Shown here piece after piece: positions 20,749 through 21,487 of a stretch of 38,856 nt of DNA. This DNA is from Candidatus Gastranaerophilales bacterium. Its GTDB lineage: Bacteria > Cyanobacteriota > Vampirovibrionia > Gastranaerophilales > Gastranaerophilaceae. The stretch is taken from assembly GCA_944326635.1 (NCBI GenBank), contig CALVEU010000006.1:1-38856 (forward strand). The letters are read 5' to 3'. Position numbers and translations under genes: made by a program. The notes under the pieces were generated by a model that saw nothing but the letters and a program-made list of their open reading frames with translations, was not told where the DNA came from and did not search any database. Positions within the stretch are counted from its first letter, which is position 1. Every line of letters starts with the position of its first letter.

Positions 20749-20833
20749 TGGTGTCGACGGGGGGACTTGAACCCCCACAGCTCTCGCCACATGCACCTCA
20801 AGCATGCGTGTCTACCATTCCACCACATCGACA
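20749..20833 (-). tRNA. tRNA-Leu (anticodon GAG)
   Basis: The acceptor stem GTCGATG pairs with CGTCGAC (one T-G), followed by discriminator A and an encoded CCA. The anticodon arm is CATGC-TTGAGGT-GCATG, giving GAG, which reads CUC/CUU leucine codons. A long class II variable arm (GGCGAGAGCT) and the TGGGG-GTTCAAG-TCCCC arm fit Leu. Its first ten bases belong to the 117-bp tandem repeat next door. Confidence 0.93.
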
Positions 20834-21097
20834 CAAAAAAATATTAAATTTTCACGGAACATGTTATATCATTTGTGGTGGATGTGCTTCGCACCCTCTC
20901 CTCTAATGTGACATTTAGTCACATTCTCGTCGGCAGAGTACCACATCGACATAAACCTTGATTAAATTTTCACAGAACAGTTAAATCATATGCTTTGGAT
21001 GAGTTTTGCACCTTTTTTTACAATATGCCATTTAGTCATATTCCATTCGGTAGAGCACCTCATCAACATAAGCCTTGATTTAATTTTCAATTTGTAT
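20824..21097. repeat. Degenerate tandem repeat, 117-bp period, overlapping the tRNA-Leu 5' end
   Basis: CCACATCGACA recurs at 20824, 20941 and, as CCTCATCAACA, at 21058. ATTAAATTTTCAC recurs at 20844, 20961 and, altered, at 21078: exactly 117 bases each time. Each full unit holds a hairpin: AATGTGAC/GTCACATT (20905-20925) and AATATGCC/GTCATATT (21022-21042), both around loop ATTTA. This fills most of the gene-free stretch before the MmcQ/YjbR gene. Confidence 0.65.
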
Positions 21098-21139: not shown

Positions 21140-21487
21140 ATGGATAAGAATGATTTAATTAAGCGTTGTCTTAAATTTCAAGATGCTGTAGAAACTTATC
21201 CTTTCAAAGATAAGACTTACTATGAGTATGCTGTTTTAAGGCATAAAACTAATGGCAAATGGTTTGGTTTAGTTTTTTATTTGAATAATCGTTTATGTAT
21301 TAACTTAAAATGTAATCCTGTTGATTCAGCTATTTTAAGAGATGAATACAAATTTATTACACCTGCTTGGCATATGAATAAAACTCATTGGATTATGGTT
21401 GATGTGAATAAATCGCCTAAGGATTTACTAGATGCCTTGATTAAAGAAAGTTTTGAATTGACAGCAAATAAGCGAAAATCCAAATAA
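21140..21487 (+). CDS. MmcQ/YjbR family protein
   Basis: This 115-residue protein matches the family from end to end: LKFQDAVETYPFKDKTYYEYAVLRH (the hallmark E-x-P-F), GKWFGLVF, INLKCNPVDSAILRDEY, the conserved ITPAWHMNKTHWIMVDV and a closing LIKESFEL helix. Members have a CyaY-like fold and are sometimes called DNA-binding, but a role is not established. ATG 21140 is preferred; longer upstream readings run into the tandem repeat. A TATAAT lies at 21095-21100. Confidence 0.85.
   Translation: MDKNDLIKRCLKFQDAVETYPFKDKTYYEYAVLRHKTNGKWFGLVFYLNNRLCINLKCNPVDSAILRDEYKFITPAWHMNKTHWIMVDVNKSPKDLLDALIKESFELTANKRKSK

Follow-up and report, generated by a model that had tools for sequence, protein, structure and literature searches.

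Results

A tandem repeat upstream of a tRNA-Leu gene

The stretch of DNA analysed here (38,856 nucleotides, hereafter the window) contains a single tRNA gene detectable by ARAGORN, a tRNA-Leu(GAG) gene transcribed from the minus strand. The gene is adjoined by a 117-bp tandem repeat, on the far side of which lies a divergent yjbR-like gene (Table 1). An earlier note on this DNA had described two full repeat units and a partial third. Both analyses of periodicity bear this out: TRF reports 2.1 copies with a period of 117 and 78% matches between 20843 and 21089, and the best ungapped 117-nt self-match of the window, among all distances from 30 to 599, is one of 85/117 positions at a distance of 117, starting at 20856. 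Since the runner-up scores 65/117, the repeat stands far above background. The note had the repeat begin inside the tRNA gene. Part of the tRNA is indeed common to the units, but the frame of reference has to be turned around: since the gene is on the minus strand, the units lie upstream of it and read on that same strand. Similarly, the sharing of the first tRNA bases is real, its extent being about 12 nt instead of ten. Each unit comprises a leader and a perfect or nearly perfect copy of some 12 nt from the tRNA 5′ end, beyond which follows sequence that is absent from the tRNA.

Table 1. Features of the tRNA-Leu(GAG) locus and its surroundings (window coordinates).
Feature	Position	Strand	Basis
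tRNA-Leu(GAG), intact gene downstream of the units	20749-20832	-	ARAGORN; Rfam RF00005
Proximal unit: small hairpin and leader (20833-20894), module (20895-20939), tRNA 5′-end copy (20940-20951)	20833-20951	-	sequence, TRF, covariance model
Intact module A: ACTCTGCCGA, hairpin, GAGAGG	20895-20939	-	covariance model R1, 37.1 bits, E 9.6e-7
Hairpin of the earlier note, inner part of module stem P3	20905-20925	-	sequence, folding
Distal unit, decayed: degenerate module (21012-21056), tRNA 5′-end copy (21057-21068)	20952-21068	-	sequence, TRF
Partial third repeat, leader sequence only	21069-21089	-	sequence, TRF
Divergent yjbR-like gene, likely start at 21140; neighbour defining the orthologous locus	21140-21487	+	Pfam YjbR, tblastn

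The sequence also confirms the 8-bp stem with an ATTTA loop that had been picked out in the proximal unit, the compensatory change from G-C (20908/20922) to A-T (21025/21039) between the two units, and the loss of one stem pair, which occurred in the distal unit. A second pairing is compensated as well: on the minus strand, the proximal unit has GATGTG/CACATC and the distal one GATGAG/CTCATC. The module of the distal unit gave no match to covariance model R1 at E values up to 10; of the two units, the proximal one is the only full member of the module family. A sigma-70 scan detected no promoter on the minus strand and, judging by the likeness to loci devoid of units, the promoter may lie beyond the repeats. 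A leader motif resembling T(G/T)GA(A/C)AATT(A/T)AATA immediately precedes a large number of tRNA genes, whether they have units or not (20833-20860 in the window; also upstream of the tRNA in loci L220, L223, L257 and L258).

The unit contains a covarying hairpin module

The portion of the unit that is foreign to the tRNA (module A) spans 38-45 nt, its ends being set by the search pattern used, and consists of ACUCUGCCGA, a hairpin and GAGAGG. Aligned matches from the genus yield the consensus ACT[CG]TGCC[GA]A, hairpin, GAGAGG. The arms of the hairpin are variable, with 89 different 5′ arms among 150 distinct modules, and are matched to one another: the fraction of paired positions is 0.908 for the two arms of one module, compared to 0.710 for equal-length arms taken from different modules. 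In an alignment of 37 of the 84 distinct modules with a 25-nt core (alignment A3), both partners have changed in all ten pairs of the hairpin stem, P3. Compensatory cells number 87, compared to an average of 21.5 after shuffling, figures of this kind being inflated by kinship among the modules. Nevertheless, when the partners are slid by one to three columns, pairing falls from 95.4% to 65.1% or less. Tandem G-A/A-G takes the place of pairs 2 and 3 in 23 of the 84 modules. A further helix, CUC/GAG, is almost invariant and thus yields no covariation signal; a CTG variant breaks its pairing.

A kink-turn is an RNA motif in which a 3-nt bulge with tandem G-A pairs separates two helices. P3 is flanked by GA/GA, with the nearly invariant CUC/GAG as the outer helix. 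Along these lines, one might regard the unit as a regulatory or processing RNA within the pre-tRNA leader, perhaps built around a kink-turn-like internal loop, whose decoy tRNA 5′ end would affect transcription or maturation of the tRNA. The strong covariation, together with the conserved unpaired letters, would be well accounted for in this manner, as would the compensated closing stem of the window's two units. The wobble counts fit less well: G-T outnumbers A-C by 36 to 17 in P3 overall, but by 21 to 17 once the first pair is left out, which gives no clear wobble bias. Nor is the closing stem, formed between the tRNA copy and the 3′ end of the unit, a feature of the family, as it reached p≤0.05 against mononucleotide shuffles in just 13 of 100 units, and it was rejected as such. 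By eye, it can be discerned in the units of the window and in a few of those at Leu, Pro and Met tRNAs.

Among Rfam families (release 15), only tRNA was matched at the gathering score, weaker matches below threshold being unrelated. A likeness to twister-sister (GCCGACG) found no counterpart in the Rfam matches and was dropped.

Module A is multicopy and, among the genomes searched, confined to one lineage

Used as a query, the window's two units matched 27 of 33 genomes of the genus, in many cases immediately upstream of tRNA-Leu genes. The module pattern was found in 31 of the 33, at 0-41 occurrences per genome, while the reversed control pattern scored 0 in all. A covariance model search of related genomes, the check that the earlier note had proposed, covered 286 genomes of the order and returned matches in 262, of which 258 belong to the window's family and four to other families; among those listed of the 24 genomes lacking a match, six are in the window's family and 14 in others. 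When 117 genomes were drawn from the phylum, 48 had matches, all in the window's family (Gastranaerophilaceae); the 20 listed non-matching genomes all lie outside the order, and no listed genome outside the order matches. The family with a covarying hairpin suspected from two repeat units is therefore conserved far beyond their locus and widespread in the order. Among the genomes searched, the module is multicopy and restricted to a single lineage.

The highest numbers of model matches per genome are at least 55 (genome G064), 50 (G073) and 49 (G025), matches being counted up to a ceiling of 55 per genome in the phylum draw and of 22 in the search of the order. The named carriers, among the matches listed (80 of at least 114 stretches), include many Candidatus Gastranaerophilales or Melainabacteria MAGs, many other records being labelled "uncultured bacterium" and a few Heliobacteriaceae, Clostridiaceae or Cyanobacteria. 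As to a phage or plasmid origin, the pattern found no match in IMG/VR, and blastn found none in 50,697 phage and 72,556 plasmid records with a 41-nt query, which makes for a weak search. Several copies lie less than 100 bases from a contig end (e.g., L104, L112, L121, L153, L169, L174). Assemblies are thus likely to be interrupted at these repeats, and the true copy numbers may be higher than those counted.

Modules lie beside duplicated tRNA ends and within other palindromes

Genomic context was analysed for 245 copies with distinct 25-nt flanks from 197 loci, many of which were picked for holding a module, so that the proportions are not genome-wide rates. In 102 copies, the module has directly on its left a copy of the 5′ end of a tRNA gene that lies on the same strand, no more than 300 nt further downstream. 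This class involves 13 kinds of tRNA: Val (17), Leu(TAG) (15), Pro(GGG) (13), Leu(GAG) (12), Met (11) and eight others. Eighteen copies lie in antisense orientation beside the 3′ end of a tRNA gene, together with a copy of that end; in one of these loci (L141) the duplicated 3′ end includes a terminator-like hairpin. A further 21 copies are near a tRNA gene without a copy of its end, two were too short for classing, and 102 have no tRNA within 300 nt. Altogether, a tRNA-end copy accompanies 120 of the 245 modules; a control using the ends of other tRNAs succeeded in 76 of 1948 trials. Of the 120 insertion points, 112 could be resolved; the bases that follow directly in the intact tRNA are GCA, GGA or GTA in 111 cases and GAA in the remaining one. 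In the cases examined, an intact tRNA gene is left beside the module or elsewhere in the genome.

Because of their position between the upstream gene and the tRNA, the units of the 5′ class are probably transcribed. This would suit a leader RNA, as does the presence of units at the same tRNAs in many species. It is difficult to reconcile such a role with the antisense copies at tRNA 3′ ends, including the one with a duplicated terminator-like hairpin, and with the 102 copies that have no tRNA nearby.

Several of the latter copies were seen by eye to lie inside other dispersed palindromes, e.g., CCCTCCC..GGGTGGG and TCATTGCGAGC.., and 11 of the 77 non-tRNA copies tested are spanned by an open frame 120 codons or more in length. 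In genome G025 (L054, L062-L079), many modules are part of a larger palindromic repeat, GAAATTTC..GAAATTTC with CCCTCCC/GGGTGGG arms; since many dispersed copies of this genome have longer flanks in common, these have spread as a larger composite repeat. A right flank, TAGACCCCATG, is common to the modules of L105, L111, L162, L179, L180, L187 and L210. Modules are found in tandem or in pairs in L104 and L179.

Units are present or absent at orthologous loci

Among 27 loci of the genus that carry tRNA-Leu(TAG), 16 are filled (15 with module A and one with module B, see below) and 11 are empty. Three of the 15 module A loci have another module nested inside and one is cut by a contig end. Filled and empty loci can share their upstream sequence, as do L234 and L235 and, likewise, L217 and L218 (the filled locus being named first in each pair). 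The locus linked to yjbR tells the same story. It contains two units in the window, one in L247 and L266, at least three, of which three are intact, in genome G015 (L002), and none in L249, L250, L251 and L267, with the tRNA identical over 81 nt in L249 and L250. This comparison covers 29 of 30 loci, L246 being left out; L260 and L245, where the yjbR hit is on the opposite side of the tRNA, were not included in the orthologous set. Thus, presence or absence at orthologous sites is polymorphic, as in transposable elements; units come and go, and the tRNA can do without them. This finding, too, weighs against a leader RNA, as does the decay of the window's distal unit. Between near-identical strains, no fresh insertion came to light.

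What is duplicated is a tRNA end with its leader, of variable length, as opposed to a clean target duplication of fixed length, and on the right-hand side of the module the unit has more tRNA sequence than expected from a simple insertion. Filled locus L217 amounts to empty locus L218 with the addition of a module, part of the D-arm, a leader of different sequence and another tRNA 5′ end. Here the second leader is not a copy of the first and, therefore, a duplication model does not fit every locus. Such an arrangement would be expected if the unit were a gene-less, tRNA-specific micro-element akin to a tRNA island, bringing a replacement for the tRNA 5′ end at which it inserts, with a putative host or phage integrase recognising the module and acting in trans. 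The nested module and leader end that genomes G009 and G019 have in common are also in line with this idea. On the other hand, one and the same module is shared by 13 kinds of tRNA whose 5′ ends differ, and is met at 3′ ends and inside repeats unrelated to tRNA as well; we consider the idea improbable.

A second module with the same habit

Module B is made up of GCAGAG, a stem and GTTTAATGCGAG. The pattern identified it at 14 non-redundant places, and it is found in loci L015, L017, L136, L237, L245, L072 and L288. Module A lies inside module B in L126 and L295; conversely, a B-like module lies inside module A in L233 and L234 and, by eye, in L241. Module B occupies the T-loop of a tRNA in L245 and follows the same duplicated tRNA 5′ ends as module A in L237, L015 and L017. 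Two different hairpins thus share one habit.

Discussion

Nature of the units

We propose that the unit arose when one end of a tRNA gene was partially duplicated, that it carries a mobile hairpin module with a preference for tRNA loops, and that one tRNA is kept intact. We put the probability of this reading at about 0.6. The module would move as a folded single strand of DNA, and its targets would be sequences that themselves fold: the D-arm on the sense strand, the T-arm on the antisense strand and other palindromic repeats. As tRNA genes are essential, surviving insertions would be those in which the tRNA end had been tandemly duplicated together with its leader or terminator. This duplication might arise by template switching in the same event or else through selection among rare duplications. 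Arrays such as that of the window could then grow, shrink and decay via unequal recombination. For the tRNA, whose 5′ leader it lengthens, the unit is probably of no benefit. Several points count against this reading: no enzyme emerges from the candidates considered below, a clean target duplication of fixed length is lacking, the duplication model does not fit every locus, and near-identical strains show no new insertion. In addition, the feet of the module are preserved in diverged species at a large number of tRNA loci, as would equally be expected of a functional leader.

The earlier note had left the choice between an expressed RNA family and decayed duplicates of the tRNA upstream region. 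On the sequence evidence, the first is not supported, given the orthologous tRNA genes without units, the antisense 3′-end copies, the copies without a tRNA and the wobble counts; a regulatory or processing role in the leader accordingly strikes us as unlikely, if conceivable for the 5′ copies. The second captures part of the picture, as leader and tRNA 5′ end are partially duplicated, but leaves out the conserved module of other origin lodged in the duplication. A third interpretation, that the module is a spliced intron of tRNA genes, is very improbable and was rejected: excision restores a complete tRNA across the junction in one of the 245 copies (L087), and the genome concerned has an intact tRNA-Met elsewhere. 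In that locus (G008:C6:97354-97451), the D-arm of an elongator tRNA-Met is interrupted by the module, the intact tRNA-Met being on another contig; the arrangement looks like a deletion between unit and tRNA. Decay of a tandem upstream duplication with no foreign element involved would account for the composition of the unit and the state of the distal copy, but as a full explanation it is refuted by the module's covariation, its many contexts and its spread through hundreds of genomes.

If the module is mobile, the enzyme responsible is not apparent from the distribution of two candidates. The Y1 transposase domain (PF01797) is encoded by six of the 33 genus genomes and is absent from G025, with its 49 model matches, and from the window's genome. 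RVT_1 (PF00078) is found in 13 of the 33 and is likewise absent from G025. Across these genomes, neither tracks module copy number. In a broader and rather doubtful extension of our proposal, gene-less, transposase-free mobile hairpins (at least A and B) might as a class enter tRNA loops in folded form and copy along the nearby tRNA end with its leader or terminator, thereby rebuilding the host gene.

If the mobile module proposed here is real, a gene-less element has been reshaping tRNA genes across a family of common gut bacteria, sparing the tRNA by copying its end. With hundreds of genomes in which copies can be counted, it would lend itself to the study, in nature, of how palindromes multiply with no evident transposase, a question that is open also for the mitochondrial GC clusters of yeast (PMC4478555) and for REPs of the CGTC type (PMC3733652). 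The repeats also bear on genome assembly and on the annotation of partial tRNA copies in bacteria of this family.

Comparison with known systems

Text searches of the open-access PMC literature listed no account of such elements in Gastranaerophilales, Melainabacteria or Vampirovibrionia, nor of the tRNA-end habit. Integrative elements that target tRNA genes restore the gene after insertion. Unlike them, the units described here are gene-less, measure 70-190 bp and occur at both tRNA ends. The palindromic elements of Rickettsia are mobile and are described as entering genes; in module A, open frames overlap the minority of non-tRNA copies mentioned above.

Among bacterial repeats, REPs are the closest kind. 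REP, BIME and REPIN sequences are short multicopy palindromes, some of them mobilised by RAYT transposases (PMC3733652). As far as the relevant sections of that source go, module A resembles them in being a species-variable, multicopy, gene-less palindrome with tandem and composite arrangements. The module agrees with their definition as multicopy palindromes of 20-40 bp, with at least 55 matches in one genome, though at 38-45 nt it is slightly longer. It has no constant counterpart of the unpaired GTAG/CGTC end tag of REPs: of 242 copies, 38 have GTAG at their 3′ edge, and the 5′ foot is ACTCTGCC. A RAYT-type Y1 gene, which would be expected of RAYT-mobilised REPs, is absent from most carriers. 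Moreover, unlike REPs as presented there, the module prefers tRNA ends and is accompanied by tRNA-end duplication.

Organelle genomes offer further parallels. The hairpin and double-hairpin elements of sponge mitochondria are likewise repeats of one or two hairpins that have the ability to spread, RNA genes being among their targets; in the passages of that report pertinent here, they lie mostly in intergenic regions and rRNA genes, without a duplicated tRNA end (PMC2800124). Closest in behaviour are the GC clusters of yeast mitochondria. In addition to residing in an organelle, GC42 differs from module A in its AG target and two-base duplication, and the portion of the source consulted mentions no duplicated tRNA end (PMC4478555). 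Like module A, however, these clusters are mobile palindromes of about 42 nt that vary in copy number, merge with other elements and multiply by a copying mechanism that the same source portrays as unsettled.
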